A stretch of DNA of 64,000 bases from Rhodothermales bacterium (GTDB lineage Bacteria; Bacteroidota; Rhodothermia; Rhodothermales; Bin80). This document shows positions 22,917 to 57,130 of this stretch, one piece after another (position 1 is the first letter of the stretch; each line of letters opens with the position of its first letter). Location of the stretch: the NCBI GenBank assembly GCA_958296045.1, contig CATQHT010000003.1, forward strand, positions 1,251,246-1,315,245, in the 5' to 3' direction. The notes beneath the pieces were generated by a model. That model was not told where the DNA came from and made no database searches. It was given only the letters and a program-made list of their open reading frames with translations. A program made the translations under genes and the position numbers.

Positions 22917-24509
22917 TTATGCGCTGGCGCGCACGGGTGGGAGCGGCATCTGTGAGGTGGGGGCGCTTTCACGCTTGGTCCACCGATGTGGCAGCAATTC
23001 GCCGATGGCGGTGGTGTGCGTCGGCATGCGCTTTAGCACATCTTCTAGCCAGGCTTGTGGATCAATGCCATGCAGTTCGCAGGTGCCCAGCAGCGAGTAG
23101 ATGATAGCAGCGCGTTGGGCTGCTTTGTGTGACCCGGCATGCAGGTAGTTCTTGCGCCCCAGCGCTAAGGGTCGGATGCTGTTCTCGACGAGATTGTTAT
23201 CAATTTCGATCCGGCCGAAGCTTACGTACCGGAACAGCTTGTCCCACCGGTTCAGGGTATAGTTGACGGCTTTGCCCCAAGCGCTGGCTGGCGTGCCAGG
23301 GTGCTGTTGAAGCCATGCCTTGAGTCCTTCCAGGATGGGGACCGCCTCTTTTTGACGCGCTTGGTAGCGCTCGGTCAGCGTGCAGTTCGCCTCGCGCAGC
23401 CTGCGCTCTATCTTGTACAGCTGCTGGATCGTCGTCAGGGCATGCTCGGCCCGTTCCAGATCGCTCTGTTGTGCTTGGACGAACTTACGTCGGGCATGGG
23501 CCCAACACCCGTGCAAGATGATATCTGGATTGTGACCAAGTACATTGTAGGCGGCGTAGCCATCGCTCTGAACATGCCCTTTGAAGTCCCGGAAAGTGTA
23601 GAGCAGCCCTTTCTGGTCGCGGCCTTTACGATACTCCATCCACACGAATCGGCGCTCCGGTGACCGGTACACCCAGTAATACCCACGGTGGTGCTTGCCG
23701 ATCTTGCTGCGATTCTGCACCGGCATGGTCGTCTCGTCCACGCAGAGGTATCCGCTCTTGAGGGACTCTTTTATGAGCTCATGATAGAGGCATATCAAGT
23801 GGAATGCTACCTGGGAGACCCAGTCACTCAGGGTCGATGTGGAAATCGAAACTCCGAGGAGTGAGAACTGTTTTCGCAGGCGGAAGAGGGGAAGGTGAAA
23901 TACGTACTTAGCGATGGTTAAGTAAGCGAGCAGGCTTGGCTCAGCCATGTACTTTTAGTTCAGGACCTCTGGCAACGGTGCGATGATGATGCCGCCGGGA
24001 CCGTCCTCCTCGTCCGAATTCTCGCCGTCAGCATCCTTCTTCTTCCTACGAGGAACGTACTTGTACCGCCTGAGCACTTTGACGACCAGCTCCGCGCGCA
24101 CGTACTCTAACGTTTCCTTATCTTCGTAGCCCATGCGCTGCATGCCCGAGACATCTTCCTTGGACTCCACGACGGTCACGTCGCGCCTCAGGTGGCGCGG
24201 GAAATTCTTTTGCAGGCGGCGGAACTTCCGCCTCGCTTTCCGCGATGCTTTCTTGAGCTTCGGGGGCACAGGAGTCGCCGTGTCCATCTTTAACGACGGC
24301 GCTTCGTCGTCGGAAGACTCGGGAAACAGGGGCTTCTGTGTGGGATCCGCACCATCTTGCGGCACAAAGCGCTCATTCTTCGCTCCGTGTATCAGGCGCA
24401 CAAGTTCGTCGCATTCAGCCTTGACCGCGTCCAGACGGTCATGCAAGCTGCTGTACTTCTCGCGCAACGAGGCACTCTCCGCCTTCAGCGCCACTATTTG
24501 CTCCCGCAA
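22917..24509 (-). pseudogene. tnpC: IS66 TnpC transposase, right arm, with in-frame TAA
   Basis: The exact counterpart of 16381-17973. The coiled-coil and zinc-region part is at 24509-23955 and the catalytic part at 23948-22917, separated by the same in-frame TAA and in the same frame. Catalytic segments LCVDETTMPV, HGCWAHARRKF and NNLVENSIRPLALGRKN are intact. Having the identical lesion in both arms means one was copied from the other after the stop arose. Confidence 0.85.
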
Positions 24510-27018: not shown

Positions 27019-27107
27019 GCTAAGACCTCATGGATTGGTCAATAGAACCTCCTACAAGGTCGGGCAATAATTCTAGCTATTCAAGATGCAGACTTTCGGA
27101 CGGATAC

Positions 27108-27115
27108 CGTGCAAC
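27108..27115. repeat. Right 8-bp target duplication of the composite transposon
   Basis: CGTGCAAC directly follows the outer end of the right IS66 arm and is the partner of 11866-11873. The flanking istA codons join in frame across a single copy. Confidence 0.9.
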
Positions 27116-28325
27116 GTATCCAGACGGCTACGGCTACAGTCGTTTCTGTGACCTATATCGTGCTTGGCGCCACCGCACGCAGGTGACCATGCATCTGCAC
27201 CACAAGGCGGGTGAGAAGCTCTATGTGGACTTTGCGGGCATGACGATAAAGGTGCGTGATCAGCCGAAGCCAGCTCAGGTCTTTGTGGCCACGATGGGTT
27301 TTTCCAGTTACACGTATGCGGAGGCCACCGGAGACCAGACGCTGAGGAGCTTTATTGGCGCACATCGTCGGGCCTTTGAGTTTTTCGGTGCGGTACCGGC
27401 GGTGGTAGTGCCTGACAACTTGAAGGCGGCAGTCAAGAAGGCGCACCGTTACGATCCGGAAATCAATCCTACCTACCAGGAGATGTGCGAGCATTACGAT
27501 CTGGTAGCGCTGCCGGCTCGCGCGAGAAGAGCAAGAGATAAGGCCAAAGTCGAGTCTGCGGTCAGAGTAGTGGAGCAGTGGATTCTGGCCGCCCTGGGTA
27601 CTGTCCCTTACCTCACGCTGGATATGCTCAATGAGCGGATTGCGAAGGGGTTGGTTACCCTGAATGACACTCCTTTTCAGAAGCGCGAAGGGAGCCGTCG
27701 CAGTCAGTTTGAGGCGGTGGATTTGCCCGCGATGCGCCCTTTACCCTCGAAGCTCTTTGAGTATAGGGAGTGGAAAGTGGCCACGGTGAGCTTTGATTAT
27801 CACATGGCGGTGAACAAGCGGTTCTACAGCGTCCCGTATCGGCATGTCCAGCGCAAAGTGAATGTATGCGTGAGGGAGGTTACCGTGGAGATATACCTTA
27901 GCAATCACCGTATAGCATCCCACATGTTATGCCCCAAGGTCTACGGATGGAGCACACATCCTGAGCATATGCCTTCGAATCATCAGGAGTACGCCCAACA
28001 GCATCGCCTGCTTGAGCGTGCCGCGCAGATCGGTCCGAACACGGAGAAGGTGGCGTTGACCATCATGGAGCGCCGCAGGCATCCTGAGCAGGGCTTTCGC
28101 TGGGGGCTCCTGGACCTTAAGCGCGCCTATCCGCGCGAGCACATCGAGGCGGCCTGCAAGTGGGCATTAGTGCACCAGATCTTCCGCACAAGCAGCATCG
28201 CTAATGTTCTCAAACGTGGCATTGAGCGGCTTACCCTGTACCAGGCAGAGGAGGACCCGCCCATCATGCACGACAACATCCGCGGTGCCCAGTACTACGC
28301 CGACCCCCCTGACAACCACGCTTAG
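27108..28325 (+). pseudogene. istA: istA, C-terminal part
   Basis: This continues the IS21 transposase after the composite transposon. It shows the DDE-type integrase core: EKLYVDFAG (first Asp), VPDNLKAAVKKA (second Asp) and the KAKVESAVRVVEQWILAAL region with Glu. It ends just before istB. Joined to 11593-11873 with one copy of the 8-bp duplication, it gives one uninterrupted frame of about 500 residues. The open frame extends upstream into the IS66 end, but that part is not native. Confidence 0.9.
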
Positions 28326-28329
28326 TTCC

Positions 28330-29094
28330 ATGTTGACACACCCAACGATAGAGCAGCTCGAGAAGCTTCGCTTCTATGGCATGGCCGACGCTTTGCGCGA
28401 TCAGCTAAACCATCCTGGCATTGAGCAGGTGGCATTCATGGACCGCCTCGGTGAGATGGTGGATCGCGAAGCCAACCGGCGTGAAAGCATTCGATTGAAA
28501 TCACGGCTTCGCCGCGCTCGGCTACGGTAACAGGCGTGTATGCAGGACATAGACTATCGCGTGCATCGCGGACTGGACCGTCGCCTCATGCTGTACTTGG
28601 CCGGATGCGACTGGATACGCCAAAAGCAGAACGTGATCATCACCGGCCCCACCAGCGTGGGCAAGAGTTATATTGCCTGTGCGCTGACCCACACCGCCTG
28701 CATAAAAGGCATTAAAGTGCGCTATTTCCGGTTGCAACGAATGCTCGAAGACGTCGCGCTGGCGCGAGCAGAGGGCCGGCTCCTGAAGCTGCTGCGTACG
28801 TTGTCGCGGCTTAGCGTGCTGGTTGATGATGATTGGGGGCTGAAAAAACTCACCAACGCGCAGCAAGATGATCTGCTGGAAATCTTGGATGACCGACACC
28901 AGGTCAGCTCCACCATTGCTACCAGCCAGCTCCCGGTGGAACGCTGGCATCAGGCCATGGAAAATCCTACGCTCGCCGATGCTATCCTGGATCGCCTCGT
29001 CCACAACGCGCACCGCATCCAGCTGACCGGCGACTCGATGCGAAAGCAAATGGCTAACGTGCACATGCCGGAATACCCGGAAGACTCATCTTGA
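28330..29094 (+). pseudogene. istB: istB helper ATPase with an in-frame TAA
   Basis: The frame starts 5 bases after istA ends (MLTHPTIEQLEKLRFYGMADAL). It reads the usual IstB sequence to RLRRARLR, then has TAA at 28528-28530, then continues in the same frame QACMQDIDYRVHRGLDR. The AAA+ part shows Walker A GPTSVGKSY (Ser where Gly is usual) and Walker B VLVDDDWGL. IstB normally assists IstA in target selection and strand transfer. The stop is probably a CAA-to-TAA change. An internal ATG at 28540 could give a shortened ATPase. Confidence 0.85.
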
Positions 29095-30643: not shown

Positions 30644-32479
30644 GAGCCTGCGATGCAGTAGCACCCGTTATGCATGGTGGCGGTGCTTGCTGACGTGGCA
30701 TCTTTGGAACAGTCACCCTGTACCCACTGCATATATGCATCTTTATGATTGTAGGTACATATATGTGTGTGTTAGCGCTACTTGCCGTCCCTTAAGCCCA
30801 TGCCGACAACGTTTCGCCCGTATGCACCAGAGGATCCGGTGGTGATGCCACCATCGCTCCAGGACTGGCTTCCAGAGGATCACCTGGCTTTTTTCGTGTC
30901 TGACTTTGTAGACCGCGCGGACCTTGCGCCCTTTTTTGCTCCATACGAGGGGGATGGGCGCCGCAATAGACCCTATCATCCTGCCATGATGTTGAAGGTG
31001 TTGATCTACGCTTATGCCACCGGCGTCACCTCATCGCGGCAGATTGCGCAGAAGTTGGAGACTAATATTGCCTTCCGTGTACTGGCGGCCAATAACATGC
31101 CGCACCATCGTACGATTTGTGCGTTCCGGCAGCGTCATTTCCAGGATTTCCGTGCTTTGTTTGTTCAGGTCGTCTTGATGGCACAGAATTCTGGCTTGAT
31201 TGATTGGGGGAAGGTTGCGATTGATGGCACCAAAGTCAGGGCGAATGCGAGTAAGCGTAAGGCGATGAGCTACGCGCGACTGAACAAGGAGGAGAAGCGG
31301 CTGCAGTCAGAGGTTGACGCGCTGTTGGCGCAGGCGCAGGAGGAGGATGAGGTAGAAGACGCGTTGTTAGGAGAGGAAGTGCGGGGCGACGAGTTGCCGC
31401 CGGCGCTGTCTACTCGCGCAGATCGTAAAGCTGCTCTTGATGCAATGGAGGCGGAGCGCACGCGTGCGAGCAAAGCGATTGGCAGCAAAAAGCAGGGGGT
31501 TGACACGACACAGCCCACCGAGGCAGTGGATTCGTCCCCATCGTCTCCAGAATTGCCGACGGATACGACCGACCTGTCCGTAGAAGTCCCCGCGGATAGC
31601 AGTGTGGAGGAGGAGATTGCACGCAGGCGGAAGAAGCTTGCCAACATCCGAAAGGCTAAGTCCAACTTGAAGGCCAGACAGCGGGAGAGGGATGAGGCTA
31701 AGGGGCGTAAGCCAAGTCAGAAGCGCAATCCGAAAGGGGGTCCAGCGTACAAGCGTCCGTTCGGGGAACCCGAAGCCAAGGCACAAAGCAATTTCACCGA
31801 TCCCGAAAGCCGCATCATGCTGACGAGCCAGGATGGCTTCCAGCAAAGTTACAATGCACAAACGGTAGTGGACGGGCGCAACCAGTTAATCGTGGAAACA
31901 CGCGTGACTAACCAGGCTACAGACCAAGATCAGCTTTTACCGATGGTAAGGGCCACCCAAGATACCTATGGTCAGCAGCTCGCTATTGTGATAGCGGACG
32001 CAGGCTATTGCAGCGAGGCCAATATCACCGCGTTGAACACCCGCGGCATAGATGGCTATATCGCCGTCGGTCGGGAGAGCGGGAAGGTGGGATCCATCAA
32101 TCCAGAGACACGGCCCGCTACGGCACGCATGTGGGACAAGCTGCGTACGAAGGAGGGGCACGCGGTCTACCGCGAGCGCAAGTGGCTCTCGGAGGCACCC
32201 AACGGTTGGATAAAGTCTGTCCTCGGCTTTCGACAATTCAGCGTTCGGGGACTGAAAAAGGTTGCTGGCGAGTGGGACCTGGTGTGCTTAAGTCTGAATC
32301 TGAGAAGGCTATTTGCAATGCAGGTGGCAAATGTGACGTAAAGGCAACAAAAATCAGGTGAATAGGGCTGCTCCAAGACAAGAAAGGGCTGCCAACGGAC
32401 ACCATTTGCCTTGGGCTGTACGGCTGACCAGCAATCCGGCCCACGAAAGCAAATGTGATCGTTCCTACGGCGCATGCCC
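30644..32479 (+). mobile_element. IS1182-family element in the sialidase gene
   Basis: 1836 bp bounded by the palindromic tetranucleotide CTAG at 30640-30643 and 32480-32483, the typical IS1182 target duplication. Removing the element and one CTAG rejoins the sialidase frame (DTTLVEPI). The terminal repeats are weak (GAGCCTGCG against GGGCATGCG). Confidence 0.85.
30800..32341 (+). CDS. IS1182-family transposase
   Basis: I choose the ATG at 30800 (MPTTFRPYAPED), the family's usual start, over an upstream TTG-type start. It encodes 513 residues. The N-terminal part has RPYHPAMMLKVLIYAYATGV and MPHHRTICAFRQRH; the catalytic part has KVAIDGTKVRANAS (Asp), AIVIADAGYCSEANI (Asp) and YRERKWLSEAPNGWIKSVLG (Glu). 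An acidic Ser/Thr-rich insert with coiled-coil sequence lies between the first and second Asp. It is intact and likely functional. Confidence 0.9.
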   Translation: MPTTFRPYAPEDPVVMPPSLQDWLPEDHLAFFVSDFVDRADLAPFFAPYEGDGRRNRPYHPAMMLKVLIYAYATGVTSSRQIAQKLETNIAFRVLAANNMPHHRTICAFRQRHFQDFRALFVQVVLMAQNSGLIDWGKVAIDGTKVRANASKRKAMSYARLNKEEKRLQSEVDALLAQAQEEDEVEDALLGEEVRGDELPPALSTRADRKAALDAMEAERTRASKAIGSKKQGVDTTQPTEAVDSSPSSPELPTDTTDLSVEVPADSSVEEEIARRRKKLANIRKAKSNLKARQRERDEAKGRKPSQKRNPKGGPAYKRPFGEPEAKAQSNFTDPESRIMLTSQDGFQQSYNAQTVVDGRNQLIVETRVTNQATDQDQLLPMVRATQDTYGQQLAIVIADAGYCSEANITALNTRGIDGYIAVGRESGKVGSINPETRPATARMWDKLRTKEGHAVYRERKWLSEAPNGWIKSVLGFRQFSVRGLKKVAGEWDLVCLSLNLRRLFAMQVANVT

Positions 32480-33018
32480 CTAGTAGAACCTATCCGCCAG
32501 GCGAGCCTACAGCGCTACCAGTTTGCCGACGAAGGGCAGAGCATCCTCTTGTTTTCCAACCCCGCAAGTGCCGAGCGGCGTGAGAATATGACCGTACGCG
32601 CCAGCTTTGATGAAGGCAAAACCTGGCCGTAGCAGATGCTTATCTACGGACCCATGGCCGCATACTCCGACTTGGTCCGGCTACCAGACGACGTTATCGG
32701 CCTATTGTACGAGGCTGGCCCGGACCAAGCCACCCCCTATCATGGCATCGCCTTCAGGCGAATTCCGCCGAGTGCCCTGAAATAGGCCCCCCAACCTGAC
32801 TTTTTGAAATGGCTCTCCACGGGTCTCTGTAAGCTCGGAAACACGCGCGTAAGCACGCTATTGACCCAGTCTCACTGGGAACCGCCCACTGCGCATACAC
32901 ACACGTGACCAACAGCGTTACACATTGCCAAGAGTTACCTACATTACCGCTCCAGCGCGGCAGCGATCGCTCAAACCCAACTAGGAATGGTGCAATCCCA
33001 AAGGTCCAGGGCCCACCG

Positions 33019-35538
33019 ATGAGCCAATATCCATCAGAAGGTGACTTTCTTGGTAGCGGCACCGTGCTGCGCGGCTACGAAATCAAGTCAGTAGTCGGAC
33101 GAGGCGGTTTCGGAGTTGTGTACAAGGGGCACCACAGGATATTGGATTCTGATGTGGCAATCAAGGAGTTCTTCCCGCGTGAGTTGGCACGGCGCAGATC
33201 TGGGGTCGTCCAGCCTATGGAGTCAGGATGTGAAGAGTCCTTCGAGGACGGCCTCCAGCGCTTCATGGCTGAGGGGCGCAGGTTGGAGGCGTTGCGAGAT
33301 CACCCGAATATTGCCATATGCCGTGATTTGTTTCTAGCCAACGGCACGTCCTACATGGTGATGGACTTCGTGGATGGGCTGCCGCTGTCTGCGTTGCTGG
33401 GGCAGCGTGAAAACAACGGCGACCCGTTTACGGAGGAGGACTTGCTTGATGTGATTCTACCGCTGCTTGCTGGCCTTAAGCGAGTGCACGAATCAGGATT
33501 ATACCACCGAGACATCAAGCCCTCAAACATCCTGATTCGGCGGCAGGATAACCAACCGGTGCTGATAGACTTTGGTGCGGCGAAGCAGGAGTCATCGGGT
33601 GCAACGAAGTCCATGGCGCCCTATACCGACGGCTACGCTGCTATGGAGCAAGTCGGTGAAGGAACCATCGGGCCATGGACTGACATCTACGGCGTTGGGG
33701 CGCTTATGTGGCGCATGGTGGCGGGTGGCAGTCCTCCATGGGAGCCACCTAGTCCAACAAAGGTCCAGCATAGGGCCTTGGCGGTCCTACAGGGCAGAAC
33801 CGATCCGTTGCCGCCTGCCAGCGCTGTTGGGTCAGGAAGATTTTCGCCGAGGCTACTCAAGTCCATTGACCAGTGTTTGGCAATCTCGGATTCCTCTCGA
33901 ATTCGCTCTTGCGATCAGCTACTTGTTAAGATACGAGAGCGCACTGTAGTAGCCGTCCCACCGCCTGCTGCAACGACAGGGAGAGTACGAAAAACCGTTA
34001 GCCAATCACGTTTGAAACAGCAGGTACGCACAAGGCGAAATCAATTCGCGGCTTTGCGTCCGACTACACGTGGTCTTGTGTTGCTCGTGGTATTGTGTCT
34101 GGTTACGGTCGCGATCGCTATGATTGCGCGAGGAATTGACGACAGTGTGCCCCTAACTGTTCAGACGGTGCCAGCAGATGCGCAGGTTGAACTTGTAGGC
34201 CATAGCGATACGTATAGTGCTGGAATGGCGCTTCGTCCCGGAACGTACCGTTTGAAGGTCAGTCAGCCAGGCTACGAATCGAAATCGGTTCAGATTAAAC
34301 ATGGAGCAGAGCCCACCCGCCGCCAAGTCATACTGAGCCCGATTAGCCCATCGCAGCCCAGGGATTCAGGCTTTGTGCTTCAGCCTGGTCTTGGTCAGAT
34401 CACACAGAGACCTAACAATCCACTACCTCCAAGAAAATCCTTTACAAGAGGATCGGACATGGACGAAGTGTTGGCGGTGCAGGGTACTCCCACAGGAATT
34501 AGAACGGACAAAGCCTTCGGTGTCGAATATTGGGACTACGGTGACCCCGTTCGGAGCTCAATTACATTCGATCTGTGGACCAAGCGGGTCAAGGGATGGT
34601 CGGACAGTGAATGGTCGGACAGTTCACGCATCCTTAAGGTGCAGATGCAGCCGAGACGGATCGTTTCAATGCTTAGCTTCACAAGAGGATCGGACATGGA
34701 CGAAGTGTTGGCGGTGCAGGGTACTCCTACAGGAATTAGGACGGACCAAGCCTTACGCGAAGAATATTGGTCCTATGGGGGCTTCTTTTCGAGCAGGGTT
34801 ACATTCGATCTGCGGACCAAGCGGGTCAAGGGATGGTCGGACAGTTCAGGCAACCTTAAGGTGCAAATGCAGCCGAGGCGAATCGTTTCAGCGCATAGCT
34901 TCACAATAGGATCGGACATGGACGAAGTGTTAGCGGTGCAGGGTACTCCTACAGGAATTTCGCAAGGCTATGGCGAAGAACAGTGGGGCTACGGTAATAG
35001 CGAGGTTACATTCGATCTGCAAACCAAGCGTGTCAACGGGTGGACGGACTACAGAGACATCCTTAAGGTGCAGATGCAGCCGAGGCGGATCGTTTCAGCG
35101 CATAGCTTTACAAGAGGATCGGACATGGACGAAGTGTTGGCGGTGCAGGGTACTCCTACAGGAATTAGAACGTCCCAATCCTGGGGCGACGAACAGTGGG
35201 CCTACGGGTCGAGCAGGGTTACATTCGATCTGCGGACCAAGCGGGTCAAGGGATGGTCGGACAGTTCAGGCAACCTTAAGGTGCAGATGCAGCCGAGACG
35301 GATCGTTTCAGCGCGTAGCTTCACAAGAGGATCGGACATGGACGAAGTGTTGGCGGTGCAGGGTACTCCTACAAGCATTTGGGAGTGGACATCCGGTGGC
35401 GAAGAATATTGGGAATACGGTGTTTCGGAGCCCTTTCCCAAAGAAGCTCCCGGGTGGAGCACAGTTATATTCGATCTGCGGACCAAGCGGGTCAAGAATT
35501 GGTCGGACATGCCAGGCAACCTTAAGGTGAACTATTAG
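33019..35538 (+). CDS. Membrane Ser/Thr protein kinase with PEGA domain and five VQGTPT repeats
   Basis: I start at 33019 (MSQYPSEGDFLGSGTVLRGY); the frame is open 38 codons further up, but the paralogue conserves this Met. It has 839 residues. The Hanks-type kinase domain (~20-305) has GRGGFG, VAIKE (Lys 49), YHRDIKPSN (Asp 165) and IDFGAAK, so it should be active. A basic linker follows, then one transmembrane helix (~352-371), a PEGA domain (~380-440), and five repeats of 65-80 residues, each starting SFTRGSDMDEVLAVQGTPT and containing a YG and a VTFDLRTKRV strand. Kinase inside, repeats outside: likely a sensor. It sits 355 bp before the channel/FHA/phosphatase/vWA operon. Confidence 0.85.
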   Translation: MSQYPSEGDFLGSGTVLRGYEIKSVVGRGGFGVVYKGHHRILDSDVAIKEFFPRELARRRSGVVQPMESGCEESFEDGLQRFMAEGRRLEALRDHPNIAICRDLFLANGTSYMVMDFVDGLPLSALLGQRENNGDPFTEEDLLDVILPLLAGLKRVHESGLYHRDIKPSNILIRRQDNQPVLIDFGAAKQESSGATKSMAPYTDGYAAMEQVGEGTIGPWTDIYGVGALMWRMVAGGSPPWEPPSPTKVQHRALAVLQGRTDPLPPASAVGSGRFSPRLLKSIDQCLAISDSSRIRSCDQLLVKIRERTVVAVPPPAATTGRVRKTVSQSRLKQQVRTRRNQFAALRPTTRGLVLLVVLCLVTVAIAMIARGIDDSVPLTVQTVPADAQVELVGHSDTYSAGMALRPGTYRLKVSQPGYESKSVQIKHGAEPTRRQVILSPISPSQPRDSGFVLQPGLGQITQRPNNPLPPRKSFTRGSDMDEVLAVQGTPTGIRTDKAFGVEYWDYGDPVRSSITFDLWTKRVKGWSDSEWSDSSRILKVQMQPRRIVSMLSFTRGSDMDEVLAVQGTPTGIRTDQALREEYWSYGGFFSSRVTFDLRTKRVKGWSDSSGNLKVQMQPRRIVSAHSFTIGSDMDEVLAVQGTPTGISQGYGEEQWGYGNSEVTFDLQTKRVNGWTDYRDILKVQMQPRRIVSAHSFTRGSDMDEVLAVQGTPTGIRTSQSWGDEQWAYGSSRVTFDLRTKRVKGWSDSSGNLKVQMQPRRIVSARSFTRGSDMDEVLAVQGTPTSIWEWTSGGEEYWEYGVSEPFPKEAPGWSTVIFDLRTKRVKNWSDMPGNLKVNY
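34438..35536 (+). repeat. Five in-frame tandem repeats in the kinase gene
   Basis: Units begin near 34438, 34675, 34900, 35104 and 35320, with lengths of about 204-237 bp. Large blocks such as GATCGGACATGGACGAAGTG and the stretch encoding KVQMQPRRIVSA are nearly identical between units. The segment after GTPT and the segment around YG vary in sequence and length. This pattern indicates recent expansion with local diversification of an extracytoplasmic domain. Confidence 0.9.
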
Positions 35539-35893
35539 GCGTGAAGGTCTGTTTCGATCTGATCACGGGGTGCGGCAAGCTCCCACCGTGTGTGCCGCGT
35601 GTAAGTGAACGCTTGCTAAGCACCAGTGTTGCCGCACTTACTTGAGCAGAGTGTGGTTGAATTCTTCATGCAGTTCTGAAAATGGATGCCAACGCCGGCC
35701 CGCTCGTCCGTCAGGCGATGCTGGCACGTACCGATCCGAAAAGGTTGGAGTTACCTAATTGCTTCCAAAAACGATCCCCAGACCAATACCTACAGCTCAT
35801 GAATATTCCGTCGACATTGGCAGCACTAGACCAATGCTTCGCCCCGGGTGCCTTTCAACCCTGAAATCGGATAGCATTCGCTAAGTTGCCTGC
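35539..35893. other. Gap between kinase and operon
   Basis: 355 bp. A 60-codon frame (35682-35864) has no recognisable features. The operon promoter probably lies here, but I see no convincing boxes. Confidence 0.35.
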
Positions 35894-36700
35894 ATGAATC
35901 TGCTTGAATTGCAAGAGTCGACCAGTCGCGCTGTCGGCGCCCTCGCTGCGCTGCTGGCTGGCTCTGGAGTAATAGCGATCCTTACCGCTCTGCTCCCGGT
36001 ACCGGAAGTTGGTACCGCCCGCATCATTCTTTCCGCCCTACTCTTGGATCGGGGAAGCGACCTCTACCCGCTGACGGTCCAGAATGTGATGTGGCTAACG
36101 TTCTTCATAGGTCTGGGTGAATTGTGGCCTCGGTTCAGGCGCGCACGTGCGGAAATCAGGCAATTTGGCATCGGGCTGTTGCCAGACGATCCGGCCACCA
36201 TCCTTCGGTCGAAGGATCTGATTGCTATCTACCGAAGAGTCATGAAGGCCAAGCGTTCCACGCACTATCGCCTTCAGCGACTAATTTTGCGCGCAATTCA
36301 ACAGTTCCAGATCAGCAGGTCTGTGGCCCAGGCGAATAGCCTGGTGGACTCCAGCCTTGAGCTCATGCAGCACGAGATCGACCTCAAGTACAGCATGGTA
36401 CGCTACATTACTTGGCTAATACCCACGCTGGGTTTCATTGGGACGGTCATCGGCATCGCGCTGGCCCTAACGGCGGCTAGCGACATGCCGAGCCTAGATG
36501 ATGCGCAGGCTGTGCAGGCTTGGTTTGGGGCCATGACCGCCAAGCTGGGGGTAGCATTCAATACCACGTTCATGGCACTCGTGATGGCCGCAGTCTTGGT
36601 GTTCCTGCAGCAAATTGCCCGGGGCAAGGAGGAGGCTGCCCTCAACAGCGCGGGCCAGTACTGTATGGACAACCTCATCAACCGGCTCTACGAAGAGTAA
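35894..36700 (+). CDS. MotA/TolQ/ExbB-family proton-channel subunit
   Basis: 268 residues. Hydrophobic helices are at ~15-37, ~60-80, ~168-196 and ~222-243. The last two frame the family core: ITWLIPTLGFIGTVIGIALA, then a conserved loop, then VAFNTTFMALVMAAVLVFLQ. MotA/TolQ/ExbB proteins form pentameric channels around a dimer of MotB/TolR/ExbD, coupling proton flow to movement. The partner is probably the last gene of this operon, which has a TolR-like N-terminus. No exbD or tolR of normal type is nearby. It is first gene of a five-gene operon with gaps of 12 bp or less. Confidence 0.8.
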   Translation: MNLLELQESTSRAVGALAALLAGSGVIAILTALLPVPEVGTARIILSALLLDRGSDLYPLTVQNVMWLTFFIGLGELWPRFRRARAEIRQFGIGLLPDDPATILRSKDLIAIYRRVMKAKRSTHYRLQRLILRAIQQFQISRSVAQANSLVDSSLELMQHEIDLKYSMVRYITWLIPTLGFIGTVIGIALALTAASDMPSLDDAQAVQAWFGAMTAKLGVAFNTTFMALVMAAVLVFLQQIARGKEEAALNSAGQYCMDNLINRLYEE

Positions 36701-36712
36701 GAGCGGATCCAA

Positions 36713-37377
36713 TGGCGAAAAAGCTCAACAAGGACGGACTACCGACGGATGTGCCTTCGGCGGCACCGCCAGCGGCCAAGGGCCTGTTTCGTGGCCTTGA
36801 GTCCGGTCCGAAGGATGACACATCTGACAAGGACCAGCTCCCGCGCGGTCGCAGCGTAATAGGGCGTGGAGAGTTGCCTACCAGACCAGCCGTTCGCCCG
36901 CATGCAGACTTGGATGCCTTTGCACCTGCGGGCGGTGAGCCGCGCACGGTTGTCGCCGTGGGGCGAAAACGGTATGCCAGCGAACCCAGGGACCGACTTT
37001 CGGTGTCAGACCCCATGGCTGATCCCGTCGTGGGGTGGCTTGTGGTTGTAGGCGGGCCCGGCCGCGGGTCGGCTGTAAAACTGGGAAGCGGGCAAAACTC
37101 CGTGGGAAGGGGGCCCAAGGCCCGGGCACGGATCGACTTCGGGGACCGGCATATTTCGCGAGATTCGCATGCCATTGTGACGTATGATCCCAGGAATAAT
37201 CGGTTCCACATCCAACAGGGTGCGGGCACCAACCTGACTTACCTGGGTGGAGAGCCGGTTCTGTCTCCTGCGGCGTTAAGGTCCGGCAGCGAGATTACGC
37301 TTGGCGAGACCACGTTGCGCTTCGTTGCCCTCTGCGACGAACACTTCACATGGAATAGAGGAGGTTTGTCCCAATGA
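36713..37377 (+). CDS. Soluble FHA-domain protein
   Basis: 221 residues from the ATG at 36713, 12 bases after the channel gene. The first ~105 residues are charged and look disordered. The FHA domain (~110-205) shows SVGRGPKARARIDFGDRHIS, SRDSHA and the TNLTYLGG loop, i.e. the Gly-Arg, Ser-x-x-His and Asn positions used to bind phosphothreonine. It lacks membrane segments. It probably reads kinase output for the neighbouring channel/vWA complex (inferred). Its end overlaps the phosphatase start by 4 bases (ATGA). Confidence 0.85.
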
Positions 37378-38120
37378 GGCAGGCCGCAGTAGCATGGGGT
37401 ACGATCAAAGGAGACCGAGAATCGCAGCAGGACGCTGCGAAATGGGTGGAATGGAAGAAGGGCAAGTATCTTCTTGTGTTGGCAGACGGAATCGGTGGCG
37501 CTGCCGGGGGAGATGTCGCGAGTGAGACTGCGGTTGCCGGCTTTGTAGAGTCGTTCATGAAGAACCCAACTGTTGCGGTTCGTAGTCGGTTGCTGGCGGC
37601 GCTGAAGGATGCCAACGATGCCGTCTGCGACGAGAAACGGCAGGCGCCAGCTCTTGCCTCCATGGGCACAACCTTGATTGGAGTTGCAATAGCAGAAGCC
37701 AAGCTGACTTGGGTGAGCGTGGGAGATAGTCCCCTCTGGCTGATCAGAAATGGAGCTATTGACCGATTGAATGAGAATCATTCCATTGGCGGGCTGCTTG
37801 ACATGAGAGCAGAGGCGGGGGAAATCACTGCCGAAGAAGCGGCGAATTCTCGCCAGAGAGGGGTTCTGCTTGAAGCGGTCCAGGGTGAGGACATAAAGTA
37901 TGTGGATGCACCTCTGGAGGGGTATGACCTACGGCCTGGAGATACTGTTATTGCCGCGAGCGACGGTGTCGAAACTTGCTCGGGCGAAGAGCTTACTGAT
38001 ATTGTTGCGGCAGGCAGGCCCTCCGCTACAGACATTGTCGGTGCAATTCTGGATGCCGTCGCGGAGCACGAGTGGCCTGGACAGGACAACGCAACGCTGA
38101 TTGTATACCGACCGAGGTAA
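37374..38120 (+). CDS. PP2C-family Ser/Thr protein phosphatase
   Basis: 248 residues, compact, without membrane segments. The metal-binding motifs are complete: GDRESQQDA near the start, VLADGIGG, SMGTTLIGV, VSVGDSPLWLI, AASDGVE and GQDNATLIVY. It should remove phosphate from Ser/Thr and so oppose the kinase encoded at 33019. It overlaps the FHA gene by ATGA, indicating coupled translation, and the next gene starts 9 bases later. Confidence 0.9.
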   Translation: MRQAAVAWGTIKGDRESQQDAAKWVEWKKGKYLLVLADGIGGAAGGDVASETAVAGFVESFMKNPTVAVRSRLLAALKDANDAVCDEKRQAPALASMGTTLIGVAIAEAKLTWVSVGDSPLWLIRNGAIDRLNENHSIGGLLDMRAEAGEITAEEAANSRQRGVLLEAVQGEDIKYVDAPLEGYDLRPGDTVIAASDGVETCSGEELTDIVAAGRPSATDIVGAILDAVAEHEWPGQDNATLIVYRPR

Positions 38121-38128
38121 GGAAGACC

Positions 38129-39568
38129 ATGAAGACACGTAGCCTCAGTATCGTACTTGGCGTAGTACTGGCCGCGGGATTGGTCGCACAACGGGCGGAG
38201 TGCACGGTATTCAGATTGGTAGTCCAGGCCGAAGGGGTAGTAGTCGCACAGGGTTTTGGAGTCCTTGTAGCCGAACACCTTCTTTTGACAGACGCTGATC
38301 TGATTGACAGCGGAGACCAGGTCCTGGTCCAGGATTTCGCAAGCGGCGCGCGCTATGCGGCGACAATTCATACACGCTCCAGGGGGCTCGTACTTCTTTC
38401 GGTACCGGGCCTGACTGGCACCGCGGCATCCATTGCGGAAGGATCCCCAGACTCTGACAGCAGCGTGTACCTTCTGGTTGCCGATGGGACGCGTCGGCGA
38501 GGATTACTGCTGTCGATTGCATTCTCGGACAGCACGGCCTCGCGGTTCCACTTAACGATGACCGTTGGGCTACATGAGGTCGGGGCGCCGCTGATGAACA
38601 ACTGTGGACACCTTGTTGCCTTGGTAGCCGGTGAGCTGGGGATGAGAGATGAGGAAGCCGAGGACAACATGGTGCGTGGCTGGTCTCGCCAGAATCTTGT
38701 TGCGTTCTTGCAAGAGAGCCAGATAGACTTTCTGACCGAAGACGAACCGTGCCCATCCGCTGAAGAGCAGTTGGAACAAGCTAAGGCTACCAGTTCAGCG
38801 CTCGAAGAGGAGAGGCAATCACTTGAGGAGGAACTCAAGCAACTGGAAGAGTCTGTAGAGCAGGATCAGCAGCGGAGTGCCGAAACGATCGCCGCAGTAA
38901 CTGCACAAAAAGCTTCGCTTGAAAGGCGCCTTGTGGAGACCGCTACCGAGCTGGCTGAGCAAGATTCCGTTATCGCGGAGAAGGATAGGCTTCAGTCTGA
39001 TTTGGAGCAGATTCGGGCGGCGCGTGACTCACTTGCGCAGCAAGCTGAGGCAGACCAGAAGCAGGCACAACGGCAACTGCGCGCGCTGACCGGCGCAGGA
39101 ATTGCTCTGATGCTGTTGGCGGCTCTGCTGGTATGGTGGTTTTGGAGGCGTCGCAAGCAGGCATGGGATGAGTTTAGCGAGACTGATGCGAAGCTCAAGG
39201 AGGCAGAAGACGAAATCGAGCGCAAGTCCGCTTCGTTTCCAGACATAGTGCTTTCGGGCAGCGGGCCGGCTGGGGATGAGTTTCATGTTAAGGTGAACGG
39301 ATACGCCTTGGTGCAGAGCGAAGCCGGTGCAATCATAGGGCGATCGTCTTCGCAGTCGGACTATGTTATTAGCGAAGCGAGCGTTTCAAGGCGGCATGCA
39401 CGTGTGCGCGTCTCAGGGAAAAGTCTTACGATCGAGGATCTTGGGAGTCTCAATGGAACAAGTATCAACGGTGAGCGCCTTGCAGTAGGCCAGCCCCAGC
39501 AAGCTGCCAGCGGGGCCACGATTGGGATAGGCGATGTGACTCTCAACGTTCAAATGCTCAAGCCGTGA
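38129..39568 (+). CDS. Membrane protein: degenerate trypsin-like domain, coiled coil, TM, FHA
   Basis: I start at 38129 (MKTRSLSIVLGVVLAAGLVA), with AAGGA upstream and a signal peptide, giving 479 residues. Residues ~25-205 resemble a trypsin-like beta barrel, but the expected catalytic His site reads LLLTDADLI and the Ser site reads HEVGAPLMNN, so it looks inactive. Next come a coiled coil (~215-325), a helix (LTGAGIALMLLAALLVWWFW), a basic stop and a cytoplasmic FHA domain (~385-479: AIIGRSSSQSDYVI, VSRRHARV, LGSLNGTSINGE). It links an extracytoplasmic sensor to phosphothreonine recognition inside. It overlaps the next gene by 4 bases. Confidence 0.8.
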   Translation: MKTRSLSIVLGVVLAAGLVAQRAECTVFRLVVQAEGVVVAQGFGVLVAEHLLLTDADLIDSGDQVLVQDFASGARYAATIHTRSRGLVLLSVPGLTGTAASIAEGSPDSDSSVYLLVADGTRRRGLLLSIAFSDSTASRFHLTMTVGLHEVGAPLMNNCGHLVALVAGELGMRDEEAEDNMVRGWSRQNLVAFLQESQIDFLTEDEPCPSAEEQLEQAKATSSALEEERQSLEEELKQLEESVEQDQQRSAETIAAVTAQKASLERRLVETATELAEQDSVIAEKDRLQSDLEQIRAARDSLAQQAEADQKQAQRQLRALTGAGIALMLLAALLVWWFWRRRKQAWDEFSETDAKLKEAEDEIERKSASFPDIVLSGSGPAGDEFHVKVNGYALVQSEAGAIIGRSSSQSDYVISEASVSRRHARVRVSGKSLTIEDLGSLNGTSINGERLAVGQPQQAASGATIGIGDVTLNVQMLKP

Positions 39569-40608
39569 AGCCTCTGCGTCGCGAACTCAATGTGTTCTCC
39601 ATCTCGGCACTGGATCTGTTTGCGTCCGGGATGGGAGTCTTCGTGCTACTTGCCATCATTGCTATTCCGTTTTTTCCCAATACCGGTGATTCTGAGGTTA
39701 GGATAGAGGACCTGGAAGGCGAGCTGGAGGTTGCCCAGACTCGTGTACGGGCCTTGGAAGGCCTAATGGCAAGGATGCAGCAGGAAAGCGATATGCACTC
39801 TGCTGTAGCCGTGGCGCTTTCGGAAGCCCAACAGCAGTTGGAGGATGCGAGCTCGCAGATACGTGAGCTCGAATGGGCATTGGCGCAGGGGCAGGACGCG
39901 TCTCGAGAATTGGAATTGGAACAGCAATTGGCTGCGATGCGGGAGGTTTTGGCAGAGGCGCAAGTACGAGTATCGGACCTGGAAGCGGCAAGCCGCGAGT
40001 TGAAGCTGCCACCTCTGGACGTAGTGATTTGCCTTGACGTGACCGGTAGCATGACGAACCAGGTTGAGGGTATCAAGCGAGAGATTGCTTCACTGGCTCG
40101 GGTGCTGGACAGAGTGGCGCCTTCGGTTGGAATCGGTATTGTGGCGTTTGGCGATCGGCGGTGGACGCAGCCAATTCACCGCTTGGCCATAGTTGAAACC
40201 ACGCGCTTGTCCAGGATCACGGCATTCATCAATTCGCTGCGCGCAAACATGGATCCCAACTGGTCGCTGAATCTTGATCAGCCGGAAGCAGTCGCCACTG
40301 CCATGAATGAAGCCATGTCCATGCCTTGGCGCGAAGCCAGCGAGAAACGCTACGTGATAGTAATCACGGACAACGCTGCATATCCAGAAAGGGTTACCAC
40401 AGCGATCGCAGCGGCCAGAAGCTTCGGAGCACAGCAAGGACACTTCGTATCTGCCGTGCGTGCGAATTTTCCGTACGATCCGGTCGCGAGAGAGGCGGCC
40501 CTGCGCTTTCTAAGGGATTTGGCGCAGGCTGGGGGTGGCAACTTTGTGGATGCGGCAGGCGGCGAGTCTATGCTGAGCACTATTTTGCTGGCCATACTTG
40601 GGACGTGA
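39565..40608 (+). CDS. TolR-like membrane protein with coiled coil and vWA domain
   Basis: 347 residues. The N-terminus has a short cytoplasmic part and one helix with an embedded acid: LNVFSISALDLFASGMGVFV then LLAIIAIPFF. Asp 17 sits where TolR/MotB carry the proton-binding Asp. A coiled coil (~48-150) leads to a vWA domain (~150-345) with an intact MIDAS (CLDVTGSMT) and later VIVITDNAAYP. I read it as the stator partner of the MotA/TolQ-like protein, with a vWA replacing the peptidoglycan-binding domain. This is inference from architecture. Last gene of the operon. Confidence 0.75.
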   Translation: MKPLRRELNVFSISALDLFASGMGVFVLLAIIAIPFFPNTGDSEVRIEDLEGELEVAQTRVRALEGLMARMQQESDMHSAVAVALSEAQQQLEDASSQIRELEWALAQGQDASRELELEQQLAAMREVLAEAQVRVSDLEAASRELKLPPLDVVICLDVTGSMTNQVEGIKREIASLARVLDRVAPSVGIGIVAFGDRRWTQPIHRLAIVETTRLSRITAFINSLRANMDPNWSLNLDQPEAVATAMNEAMSMPWREASEKRYVIVITDNAAYPERVTTAIAAARSFGAQQGHFVSAVRANFPYDPVAREAALRFLRDLAQAGGGNFVDAAGGESMLSTILLAILGT

Positions 40609-44601: not shown

Positions 44602-46009
44602 GGCTCTTCTCCTAATTGGATGGGTACTATGTTGTAACCACCGGGAAACGATTTGAGAGGATGCGGATTCCTTGTCGTTTCTGGCTTGTTTCCAGGCCAT
44701 CATCGCGATGGCACCCATGTTCTCCAACTTCATCAACACTATATCGCAGTTGAAGAACAATATCGCTTATCTGTTGGGCATCCGTGCTCCCTGGGAGGTT
44801 TCCGACGTGACCTTCGCGCATGAGGAGCGAGAAGCGTGGATCCATGTATCCTACGAGGACGGCCATCAGCTTCCTTGTCCAGAGTGCGGCTCACCGTCTT
44901 CGGGCTATGATCACCGTCCTCGGCAATGGCGTCACTTGGATCTGTGCGGGTATCGCACTATGGTGGTTATGCTACTTCCCCGCGTAGCATGTTCAGAGCA
45001 TGGAGTGCGCACCGTGTCGGTTCCGTGGGCGGAGCCTATGTCACGGTTTACGGCGGAGTTTGAGGCGCTGGTGATTGATTGGCTGCAGGAGGCGAGCATA
45101 TCGGCGGTATCTCGTCTGATGAAGGTGAGTTGGAATGCGATAGATGGGATCATGCAGCGTACGGTGCAACGCGGTCTTGCGCGCAGATAAGGAATGCGAT
45201 GTTGCCCATATTGGCGAGGATGAGACCTCTTTTCGCAAGCGCCACACATATGTCACCATTGTTTCGGATGCGAAGCCGGGTACGGTGCTGCATGTGGGCG
45301 AAGACCGTAAGAAAGAAACACTTTCGCAATGGTATGCTGGACTCACTGTGGAGCTGCTGGAGGGGATCGAGAGTGTTAGCATGGACATGTGGCCAGCCTA
45401 CATCAACGCCACGCTGGAGCACGTGCCAGAGGCGCAACGGAAGGTAGTCTTTGGCAAGTTTCATGTGGTGAAGAGTCTGGGAGCTGCCGTAGACAAGGTT
45501 CGGCGCCAGGAGCACCGGGCATTGATGAAGGAAGGTCGGGACGACCTCAAGGGAACCAAGTATGATTGGTTAACTCACTCGGCCAACAAGTCTGCTAAGC
45601 AGCAGGTGCGCTTCGAGCAGTTGCGTACCAGCACGTTGAAGACGGCCCGCGCGTGGGCCATCAAGGAAGCGGCTATGCAGTTGTGGCACCGTGTCCACCG
45701 CCCATGGGCGCGTGAGGGGTGGGAGCGATGGTTGTCGTGGGCCATGCGGTGTCGGCTGGAACCGGTCAAAGCAGCCGCCAGAACCATCAAGAATCACCTA
45801 TGGGGTATCCCTCAATGCGATCATCCTGAAGGTAAGCAATGGCCCCGCGGAAAGCATCAACAGCCGGATCAAAACAATCAAAGTGCGCTGTAGGGGCTTC
45901 CGCAACAAACGGCGATTTGCCAACGCCATTTACTTTCACCTCGGAGGCTTGGATCTATACCCCGAAAGCGTCCGCCGGTGAGCTCACCCACTAAACGAGG
46001 GGAAGTGCC
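44602..46009 (+). mobile_element. ISL3-family element, decayed
   Basis: The left end GGCTCTTCTCCTAATTGG and the complement of the right end, GGCACTTCCCCTCG, are related terminal repeats of the ISL3 type. Length is 1408 bp. The transposase has at least two frame breaks. The sequence right of it is a partial copy of the 131-bp repeat at 52.8-53.1 kb, so it inserted into that repeat. Confidence 0.8.
44717..45981 (+). pseudogene. ISL3 transposase with frameshifts
   Basis: The frame MFSNFINTISQLKNNIAYLL runs to about 45187 and stops (RGLARR). A second frame continues HIGEDETSFRKRHTYVTIV, MDMWPAYINATLEHVPEAQR and the KFHVVKSLG region (DDE core) to about 45830. A third frame completes SNGPAESINSRIKTIKVRCR and GFRNKRRFANAIYFHLGGLD. 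All conserved ISL3 regions are present but split by two indels, so the copy is dead. Confidence 0.85.
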
Positions 46010-46079: not shown

Positions 46080-47796
46080 CAGCGATTCTAAATTTGGGTG
46101 CATGTAGGGTTTACGGGAATGCCTGTTCAGCAGACGTTATGTGTATCATGGGTGTATGGACTGGCAATACCGGCCCTGCGATGCCCTGCTATAGGGTGCT
46201 TTTATCTTTCACTCTGAGGTACACCCATGAAACCAAACAAGCTGCTGCGCGATGTGCTGAAACGCATCCGATCGGCCGCCGGTGCATTTCAGGATAACCG
46301 TCAGGGGCCCAATCTGCGCTACACGCTGGCCGATGCCGTGTTGAGCGCATTTGCCTGCTTCTTTCTGCAATCGCCCTCTTTTCTTGCTTTTCAGCGGAGG
46401 ATGCAGGACGACGTGGGCCGTTCCAACTGGCAGACGCTGTTTGGCATGCAAGGCATTCCCTCTGACGGGCAGATCCGCAACCTGCTGGACCGCCTGGTGC
46501 CAGATTCATTTCAGCGCCTGTTTCTGCACCTGCTGGATACGCTTCGTTCCAAGGGAGACTTGTCGCCGTTTGTACGTCTGAGGGATCGCATCCTTGTGGC
46601 GCTTGATGGCATCGAGTTTCATTCCTCTCGGACGATCCATTGTAAGCAATGCTCCTCTCGTCGCACGGGGAAAGACAAGCGTCCTTCGTTCTTCCATACC
46701 ATGGTGGCGGCGGTTGTGGTGGCTCCAGGGCACAACCGGGTGGTACCGTTGATGCCAGAGTGTGTCCGCACACAGGATGATCCTGGCGACCAGCACTCGG
46801 TGCGGCGTCGCAAGCAGGATTGCGAGATCAATGCCGCTAAGCGGTGGTTAACGAAGTGGGGAGCTCGCATGGCTCGCTATCGTCCGGTATATCTGGGAGA
46901 TGCCCTATATGCTACACACCCTTTCTGCCAACAGGTGCTCCATGCGGGCGCCGATTTCCTGTTTGGTGGTCAAACCCAAGTCGCATAGCACGCTATTCAA
47001 GTTTTTACACGAGCGCTATATCCAGAGCACCGGTTGGATCCGGGTGCAGAACAAGAAGACACGTCGCTACGAAGAGCACTACTATTGCTGGATGTCCGAT
47101 CTGCCGATTCGGAACACGGACGATGCCGTACACGGCACATGGGTGGAAAAGACCGTGCGAGTACGCCAAAAGCAGGGCACCTACAAGCAGACCTTCTACA
47201 CGACGCTTTTCACCAGCCTGACGGTAACGAAGCACAATGTACAGGAGGTTGCTCTTTGTGGGCGGGCGCGCTGGAAAATCGAGAACGAGTGCTTCAACAT
47301 CCTCGCACGACACGGACAGAACTTCAAACACAACTTCGGGCATGGCAAAAATGGGCTGGCAAACCTGTTAGCCACCCTCAACCTGTTGGCATTTGCCCTG
47401 CATACGATGCTCGACCAAGTAAAAGGGTTGTGGAGGCAATGCCGAGCATCCTACCAGGTGCGGCGCGCTTTCTTTCAGGAAGTGCGCGTGCTTACGACGA
47501 GATATTGCTTTCCCGACTGGCGAAGTCTCTGGGAAAGCATGTTGTACCGTCGTTCGCCTCCGCTGGCGCTTTCCGCCGCGAGAGCCTGAAAGATTGTATG
47601 TCTCAAATAGGATAAGCGGGAATTCCAGAGACCTGGAAGGCCGTCGTATGCCTCTGGCGGATTGGTGGCGCCTCAAATGTAGCTTCTTATTGCCTGCTTC
47701 CGTCCACCAACCGCCTAACTCACAGCCCGCATGCGCGTAGCCTACCGCAAAACAAGATCCGTTCCCCCACCGAACGCCCCAAATTTAGAATGGCTG
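46080..47796 (+). mobile_element. IS4-like insertion sequence, copy C
   Basis: 1717 bp with ends CAGCGATTCTAAATTTGGG and CCCAAATTTAGAATGGCTG (one mismatch). The 9-bp duplication GGGAAAAAG is perfect at 46071-46079 and 47797-47805. It is inserted at the last codons of the second kinase gene. The transposase has a frameshift, so it is probably no longer autonomous. Confidence 0.95.
46227..47589 (+). pseudogene. IS4-like transposase, frameshifted (copy C)
   Basis: The first frame (MKPNKLLRDVLKRIRSAAG) runs to about 46965, where an extra G (TTTGGTGGTC against TTTGTGGTC in intact copies) shifts the frame and leads to a stop at 46988. The second frame continues VVKPKSHSTLFKFLHERYIQ to 47589 with the RWKIENECFN block. 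Otherwise it is very close to the intact copies. Confidence 0.9.
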
Positions 47797-49287
47797 GGGA
47801 AAAAGGGAAACAGCCAAAACCCCAATAAGAAATCCCACCCAACCAGAAGCAACCATAACCCAGAGTAATTTAAGCCAATCTGAGTCGTCAATTGCTCGCT
47901 TAATCAAAACGCCGATGGGACCGAGCGCAAAACCAGAAGTACCCATAACCCCGAGTAATTTAAGCCAACTTGGGTCGTCAATTGCTCGCTCAATAAAAAC
48001 GGCACTGAGAAAGACCGGGTACAGAAACCACAACAATATCAACCAACCTGGTTCGCCATCGTCAAATGCTCCCTTAGTCCAAACATCATGCGATTTGAAC
48101 GCGATAATAAGCCCCCACCCTATGACCATTAATAACCTCCACCAACTTGGGTCGCGACTTTCATGCTCAATCCAAGCCCCAATGAAAATGACCGCGGACA
48201 TAAACCAGAGCAATACCATATATGACTTAAACGAACGTGGAGGCCAACGCAAAGCCGCGGATTGGTTTGGCCTTGTGCGTACTTGCTGTTTCAAACGTGG
48301 TTGGCTAACGGTTTTTCGTACTCTCCCTGTCATTGCAGCAGGCGGTGGGACGGCTACTACGGTGCACTCTCGTATCTTAACAAGTAGTTGATCGCAAGAG
48401 CGAATTCGAGAGGAATCCGAGATTGTCAAACACTGGTCAATGGACTTGAGTAGCCTCGGCGAAAATCTTCCTGACCCAACAGCGCTGGCAGGCGGCAACG
48501 GATCGGTTCCGCCCTGTAGGACCTCCAAGGCCCTATGCTGGACCTTTGTTGGACTAGGAGGCACCCATGGAGGACCGCCACCCGCCACCATGCGCCACAT
48601 AAGCGCCCCAACGCCGTAGATGTCAGTCCATGGCCCGATGGTTCCTTCACCGACTTGCTCCATAGCAGCGTAGCCGTCGGTATAGGGCGCCATGGACTTC
48701 GTTGCACCCGATGATTCCTGCTTCGCCGCACCAAAGTCTATCAACACCGGTTGGTTATCCTGCCGCCGAATCAGGATGTTCGAGGGCTTGATGTCTCGGT
48801 GGTACAATCCTGATTCGTGGACTCGCTTAAGGCCAGCAAGCAGCGGCAGAATTACATCAAGCAAGTCCTCCTCCGTAAACGGATCGCCGTTTTTTTCACG
48901 CTGCCCCAGCAACGCAGACAGCGGCAGCCCATCCACGAAGTCCATCACCATGTAGGATGTGCCGTTGGTTAGAAACAAATCACGGCATATGACAATATTC
49001 GGGTGATCTCGCAACGCCTCCAACCTGCGCCCCTCAGCCATGAAGCGCTGGAGGCCGTCCTGGAAGGACTCTTCACATCCTGACTCCATAGGCTGGACGA
49101 TCCCAGATCTGCGCCGTGCCAACTCACGCGGGAAGAACTCCTTGATTGCCACATCAGAATCCAATATCCTGTGGTGCCCCTTGTACACAACTCCGAAACC
49201 GCCTCGTCCGACTACTGACTTGATTTCGTAGCCGCGCAGCACGGTGCCGCTACCAAGAAAGTCACCTTCTGATGGATATTGGCTCAT
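47785..49287 (-). CDS. Membrane Ser/Thr kinase, paralogue with a multi-helix C-terminus
   Basis: 500 residues from 49287 (MSQYPSEGDFLGSGTVLRGY). Residues 1-345 are nearly identical to the kinase at 33019, including GRGGFG, VAIKE, HRDIKPSN and IDFGAAK, and about 190 bp upstream also match. After QQVRTRPNQSAALR the sequence is unrelated: about six hydrophobic helices with three spaced units RDPSWWRLL, DDPSWLKLL, DDSDWLKLL. No PEGA or VQGTPT repeats. The IS4-like element replaces the last residues: the native end was FPA and stop, now FPQPF with the stop inside the IS repeat. Probably still functional. Confidence 0.85.
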   Translation of the reverse strand: MSQYPSEGDFLGSGTVLRGYEIKSVVGRGGFGVVYKGHHRILDSDVAIKEFFPRELARRRSGIVQPMESGCEESFQDGLQRFMAEGRRLEALRDHPNIVICRDLFLTNGTSYMVMDFVDGLPLSALLGQREKNGDPFTEEDLLDVILPLLAGLKRVHESGLYHRDIKPSNILIRRQDNQPVLIDFGAAKQESSGATKSMAPYTDGYAAMEQVGEGTIGPWTDIYGVGALMWRMVAGGGPPWVPPSPTKVQHRALEVLQGGTDPLPPASAVGSGRFSPRLLKSIDQCLTISDSSRIRSCDQLLVKIRECTVVAVPPPAAMTGRVRKTVSQPRLKQQVRTRPNQSAALRWPPRSFKSYMVLLWFMSAVIFIGAWIEHESRDPSWWRLLMVIGWGLIIAFKSHDVWTKGAFDDGEPGWLILLWFLYPVFLSAVFIERAIDDPSWLKLLGVMGTSGFALGPIGVLIKRAIDDSDWLKLLWVMVASGWVGFLIGVLAVSLFPQPF

Positions 49288-49489
49288 CGGTGGGCCCTGG
49301 ACCTTCGGGATTGCACCATTCCTAGTTGGGTTTGAGCGGTCGCTGTCGATCTGGGGCAGTAATATAGGTAACTTTTGGCAATGTGTGACGCTGTTGGTCA
49401 CGTATGTGTATGCGCAATGGGCGGTTCCCAGCCAGACTGGGTCAATAGCGTGCTTACGCGCGTGTTTCCGGGCTTACGGACCCAACTTC

Positions 49490-57085: not shown

Positions 57086-57130
57086 ATCTGTCGTTGGCTT
57101 GTAACTGGTCAGCTGAACCAGTCGGGTCAC

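Follow-up and report, generated by a model that had tools for sequence, protein, structure and literature searches.

What does a membrane channel of the MotA/TolQ type do in an operon that also encodes a protein kinase, a protein phosphatase, FHA proteins and a vWA protein? The question is raised by a gene cluster in a 64,000-nt stretch (the window, in whose numbering all coordinates are given) of contig CATQHT010000003.1 of a Rhodothermales bacterium, for which an earlier note, made from the sequence alone, had proposed a proton-driven complex gated by threonine phosphorylation. The answer that we favour, with a probability of about one in two, is that five tightly packed genes, together with one or more kinases, encode a proton-driven inner-membrane motor of the 5:2 type under Thr-phosphorylation control.

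All six open reading frames of the earlier note are present, and its observation of the gene set is confirmed. The five-gene block (35894-40608) is preceded by a gene for a membrane Ser/Thr kinase, here called K1 (33019-35538; Pfam Pkinase, E 7e-35, plus weak PEGA and BamE matches), and all six genes are on the + strand. The block encodes, in order, a TolQ/ExbB-like channel subunit of 268 amino acids (35894-36700; MotA_ExbB, PF01618, E 2.8e-10), a cytoplasmic FHA protein (36712-37377; FHA, E 2.4e-8), an Stp1-like PP2C phosphatase (37374-38120; PP2C_2, E 1.5e-14), a trypsin-like/FHA membrane protein, TrypFHA (38129-39568; FHA, E 1e-17, and a weak Trypsin_2 match, E 3e-4), and a protein with a transmembrane (TM) helix, a coiled coil and a vWA domain (39565-40608; VWA_2, E 1e-8). 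The tight packing noted earlier holds inside the block, where the intergenic gaps are 11, -4, 8 and -4 bp, but the two supposed ATGA overlaps are one ATGA (at 37374) and one GTGA (at 39565, with a GTG start). The distance from the end of the kinase gene to the start of the channel gene is looser than the rest, i.e. 355 bp here and 40-105 bp in close relatives. A promoter and terminator scan gave signals not above those of shuffled sequences.

Identical genes in identical order recur in other genomes, so that the gene set is not due to chance but is a conserved system. In a set of 99 genomes, made up of that of the window and those of 98 relatives, six relatives encode the channel protein at 64-70% identity, and within the reach of their contigs these loci have the genes in the same order. 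Matches of about 25% identity in two genomes (G009 and G015) were rejected as other TolQ-like proteins of the ordinary TolQ/ExbB type, with an hhalign probability of only 26. One genome scan yielded 149 relatives, of which the best 80 represent at least six phyla and come from Rhodothermia/Bacteroidota, Gamma- and Alphaproteobacteria, Acidobacteriota, Gemmatimonadota, Latescibacterota and Binatota. Many loci come from metagenome-assembled genomes (MAGs) with cut contigs, and gene retention was counted in the 48 well-flanked loci, which have 6 kb or more to either side: a vWA-type partner is retained in 47, TrypFHA in 40, a kinase in 38, and the FHA and PP2C genes in 37 each. These data indicate that the six gene types form a conserved operon across genomes and that the kinase, PP2C and FHA genes belong with the channel and vWA genes. 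The earlier note had named homologous neighbourhoods without kinase and phosphatase as a finding that would refute its proposal, and the outcome is in its favour. The system is rare in the window's phylum (three strong matches in 296 genomes, the window's own included). The channel tree mixes phyla, with, for example, an Acidobacteriota row within the Rhodothermota/Bacteroidota group, which, as several of the rows are MAGs, no more than suggests transfer.

The AlphaFold2 (AF2) model of the channel protein (pLDDT 90) is most similar to TolQ and ExbB, with ZorA and MotA following in that order, and Foldseek gave a probability of 1.00 and a TMq of up to 0.59 against TolQ/ExbB structures. The channel assignment of the earlier note can thus be narrowed to the TolQ/ExbB-like class, as distinct from MotA- or Zorya-like. 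As in the A subunits of 5:2 ion-driven motors, the MotA_ExbB fold is present, and the conserved pore-lining threonines of such motors have counterparts, at putative pore positions, in T184 and T225, which are invariant across 33 sequences; P177, G180 and G183 are also invariant. The B subunits of these motors carry an Asp in a single N-terminal TM helix, and in the vWA protein D17 lies within the sole hydrophobic helix. This Asp, whose lack of conservation would by the earlier note have refuted the proposal, is kept in all 79 partners whose TM helix is of the SALDLFASALGAF type and, as no TolR/ExbD gene is present in the operon, the vWA protein stands in the position of MotB, TolR or ExbD. In its AF2 model, a helix (residues 11-36) and a coiled coil (44-146) are followed by a vWA fold, in which the metal ion-dependent adhesion site (MIDAS; D158-x-T-x-S162 and D269) is recognizable, with D158, S162 and D269 invariant across 24 aligned vWA members. 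The coiled coil and the vWA domain are predicted to be periplasmic, because the N-terminal stretch that precedes the helix is basic, which points to an N-in orientation (positive-inside pattern).

A motor of this kind has a published precedent: in a 5:2 motor proposed in Mol Biol Evol 2025 (msaf138, PMC12204202), TM-vWA proteins that adjoin tolQ, without tolR, serve as a dimeric axle. These TPH-vWA motors mostly have heterologous vWA pairs, a family in Idiomarina being one example; kinases are unmentioned in that paper, and the single 'FHA' match in its text is FhaC (PMC12204202). Pair-type TolQ/vWA loci were found in three carrier genomes. They have a AFLDVMSCGFGA-type helix, are homologous to the window system over the TM and vWA regions (hhalign 99.5 for the vWA protein and 99.8 for the channel) and constitute a distinct branch with no adjoining FHA, PP2C or kinase genes; from the description given in that paper, not from its sequences, we infer that they are its own family. 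The window system shares with TPH-vWA motors the TolQ-like channel without TolR/ExbD and the vWA protein with a TM Asp, but it has a single vWA gene, as do most loci, and differs in the SALDLFASALGAF helix and in its kinase, PP2C and FHA genes. It is a sister branch of these motors, not a member. TolQR and ExbBD are also alike in the channel fold, the conserved threonines and the partner with a TM Asp, whereas the window system has a vWA head where TolR and ExbD have their periplasmic domain, a phosphorylation module of its own and no TolA/TonB gene in the operon. In searches of open-licence literature on TolQ, FHA, PP2C and vWA combined, no paper describing this set was found; the earlier note likewise knew of no named system with this gene set. 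The motor half of its idea was published in 2025 for the sister family. Because PMC12204202 proposes the motor and leaves kinases unmentioned, the motor idea is already known, and what is new is the branch under kinase control.

A phosphothreonine module of the write-read-erase type is complete in the operon: two candidate sites are defined, and the kinases form a family with swapped sensors. The kinase domain of K1 is cytoplasmic and its catalytic motifs are intact (Lys49, HRD and DFG). As described earlier, it is a repeat-bearing membrane kinase: one TM segment (352-370) is followed on the far side by a PEGA-like domain and five near-identical BamE-like repeats of 69-79 amino acids each, encoded by a tandem array at 34440-35373 (+; period of ~213 bp, 4.3 copies by Tandem Repeats Finder). 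A second kinase, K2, is encoded at 47785-49287 (-), and its N-terminal 374 amino acids are 90% identical to K1. This similarity corresponds to an inverted duplication of 1251 bp (32821-34071 and 48235-49483; 96% DNA identity), which comprises the upstream region and the kinase domain and is followed by unrelated sensor parts, a polytopic membrane region occupying the C-terminus of K2 in place of PEGA and repeats. K2 is thus a sensor-swapped duplicate of K1, and it probably provides a second input. At least two kinases occur in 14 of the 46 kinase-bearing loci, and most of these pairs are ~50-92% identical over the kinase domain and differ in their C-termini. At one locus, a kinase (L098:2573-6841) with 14 copies of the BamE-like repeat of K1 lies beside a second kinase, and the kinase domains of the two are 92% identical.

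The clearest present indication of a kinase target comes from the FHA protein, whose N-terminus (~100 residues) is disordered. Two of its threonines, Thr57 and Thr79, stand in contexts of the acidic-x-x-T type ([DE][AP]P-T-[RVQ] and [DE][EP][KR]-T-[RV][ILV]xGG) and recur in 95-97% of 59 homologues; besides M1 and an N-terminal DG, the two motifs are the only strongly conserved positions of this region. The pattern [DE]xxT[RVKQ][ILVMAP] matches only these two sites among the six window proteins. Both are likely kinase sites, and the threonine phosphorylation proposed earlier appears to have been a good guess. The phosphatase retains its DGIGG, SDG and DN metal-binding motifs. TrypFHA consists of a signal/TM segment, a trypsin-like domain, a coiled coil, a TM segment (317-335) and an FHA domain; the domains and membrane segments agree with the earlier description, but an active trypsin is ruled out here, as the catalytic His and Ser are replaced. 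Both residues are likewise lost in its relatives in Bacteroidota and Gammaproteobacteria and, where two TrypFHA paralogues exist, one usually retains them and looks active. Its hydrophobicity profile suggests that TrypFHA is a membrane-spanning pseudoprotease scaffold with the FHA domain in the cytoplasm.

Control of an inner-membrane machine by a kinase and an FHA protein has a precedent in the type VI secretion system (T6SS), in which phosphothreonine at Thr14 of TssL is read by Fha (PMC3953482). The PpkA/PppA/Fha pathway resembles the window system, as read here, in placing a kinase, a PP2C and FHA over such a machine, but the proteins scanned gave no match to T6SS core components and only a weak match to the TagH model (E 0.003), and the window system does not belong to this pathway. 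The TerY-P triad consists of the same three domain types, vWA, kinase and PP2C. Unlike the cytosolic TerY, however, the window vWA protein is TM-tethered, predicted to be periplasmic and provided with a channel partner; with no TerY-C domain match either, membership of TerY-P was rejected.

If the system is a kinase-controlled motor, the TolQ-like protein would form a pentamer, and the Asp17 helices of two vWA proteins would be inserted in it as an axle, replacing TolR, ExbD or MotB and carrying the coiled coil and the integrin-like, MIDAS-type head into the periplasm. By binding a partner there in a metal-dependent manner, the head would convert rotation or a conformational change into a pulling force on the envelope. 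Thr57 and Thr79 in the FHA protein tail would be phosphorylated by membrane kinases, whose periplasmic or membrane sensor parts are exchangeable; FHA domains, including the cytoplasmic one of TrypFHA, would recognize the phosphorylated threonine and either assemble on the motor or release it, and the PP2C would reset it. The interpretation of the earlier note is in these respects partly supported. Several observations weigh against it. The Foldseek E-values of the channel are 5e-3 at best, and a search of PDB sequences with its profile yielded nothing useful (best E 0.43). In the monomer model of the vWA protein, the TM helix is placed with low confidence (pLDDT 45-70). The MIDAS is undetectable in 16 of the 79 partners that share the TM helix, so that the helix is constant, the head is variable and vWA is not the sole possible head. 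The correlation among the distances of the channel, FHA and PP2C proteins (r 0.84-0.88, 56 loci), which speaks for the motor reading, partly reflects shared species history. In addition, a Gemmatimonadota clade retains the channel and vWA genes without FHA, PP2C or kinase genes, and the motor core is therefore not everywhere dependent on them.

The persistence of the pair alone in Gemmatimonadota also favours a reversed direction of control, in which the channel and vWA proteins would sense envelope tension or proton-motive force and report to a kinase/PP2C/FHA network that acts on an ABC transporter, proteases or transcription and not on the motor. The related loci do contain varied FHA-bearing outputs (M4 protease-FHA, ABC transporter-FHA and trypsin-FHA), as well as kinases with an FGE-sulfatase domain, and the sensor parts of the kinases vary. 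However, the kinases carry far-side domains of their own and therefore do not need the motor as a sensor, and the conserved candidate phosphosites sit in the FHA protein of the motor operon itself. This reversal seems rather unlikely to us.

An anti-phage role analogous to Zorya was suggested by the surroundings. A complete Gabija system (53517-57130, -) lies 13 kb downstream of the operon, with GajA at 55391-57130 (-; PADLOC E 3.5e-196) and GajB at 53517-55394 (-; E 1.6e-204). The window is also rich in insertion sequence (IS) elements (7591-9393, 16381-17973, 22917-24509, 27030-29094, 30782-32341, 44672-45893 and 50373-52157), with a serine recombinase, an inverted IS66-like pair and IS21-like, IS1182-like, ISL3-like and DDE_Tnp_1_4 transposases, several of which were named by eye. 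The distribution of the system is patchy, and its kinase resembles the MADS mad6 and PD-T4-6 models, though these are generic kinase matches. Beyond the window, however, PADLOC matches at 1e-10 were no commoner among 138 proteins encoded beside related loci, where about 10 or fewer were seen and most were generic, than among 122 control proteins from ten carrier genomes (up to 12), the control genomes being mostly Gammaproteobacteria. A defence-island setting as a general rule was therefore rejected, and the Gabija pair is local. A phage or plasmid origin was likewise dismissed, with no phage match and only one of three plasmid records (Rhizobium, 46% identity) looking truly related. The conserved set includes no nuclease or helicase effector. 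ZorAB shares the logic of a MotA-superfamily channel with an Asp-bearing partner, but ZorA models match only at 1e-3, the window channel ends 8 residues past its last long helix (204-260) in place of the long C-terminal cytoplasmic tail of ZorA, vWA stands where ZorB has a peptidoglycan-binding domain, and none of the six proteins matches ZorC, ZorD or ZorE (PMC11890865 for Zorya). The system is thus not a Zorya system, and the defensive role considered in the earlier note is improbable, despite the nearby Gabija genes.

A motor for surface motility or adhesion in the style of the Agl-Glt gliding machinery was also considered. A TolQR-like motor, FHA proteins and a vWA adhesin are parts of that machinery, and this parts list is shared with the window system, the FHA domain of TrypFHA matching the GltG model (E 2e-5). 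This match is limited to the generic FHA domain, no other Glt or Agl genes were seen in the operon, and the vWA domain is attached to the axle helix and is not a separate outer-membrane protein; a gliding motor is accordingly given very little weight.

5:2 motors (Tol, Ton, Mot, gliding and Zorya) are a current frontier, and the switching of the non-flagellar ones is poorly known. To our knowledge, small proton motors with built-in kinase control have not been described. Tentatively, and at somewhat less than even odds, the kinase-controlled motor may exemplify a widespread and hitherto undescribed class of envelope machine, in which Hanks-type kinases, whose sensors are interchangeable, switch a proton-driven 5:2 motor with a MIDAS vWA axle by way of FHA readers and a PP2C; it would be the first motor of the superfamily for which direct control by Thr phosphorylation is shown. 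Cultured carriers include Pseudidiomarina, Alteromonas, Aliiglaciecola and Pseudomonas sp. WN033 and, since the operon carries the phosphothreonine module and occurs in cultured bacteria, signal-gated envelope force is directly testable.

Some variation in layout was observed among the loci. In 33 of the 48 well-flanked loci, the channel gene is directly preceded by an extra small FHA gene, which the window does not have at this position, and such a protein (e.g. L062:4884-5249) is encoded in about 50 of 80 loci (L031-L105). Its tail often resembles RRNxETGEII (a strict pattern matches 18 of 50), which is similar to the RGPDGKIIEE start of many FHA proteins. Two contigs of one SAR86 MAG (L035 and L036) carry identical channel proteins and layouts and represent either a duplicate or an assembly artefact. 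In the Gemmatimonadota variant (L086-L092, L099, L100 and L104), the channel gene is convergent with the vWA gene, and in most cases it is overlapped by a gene for a protein with leucine-rich repeats and a peptidoglycan-binding domain (domains checked in L088).

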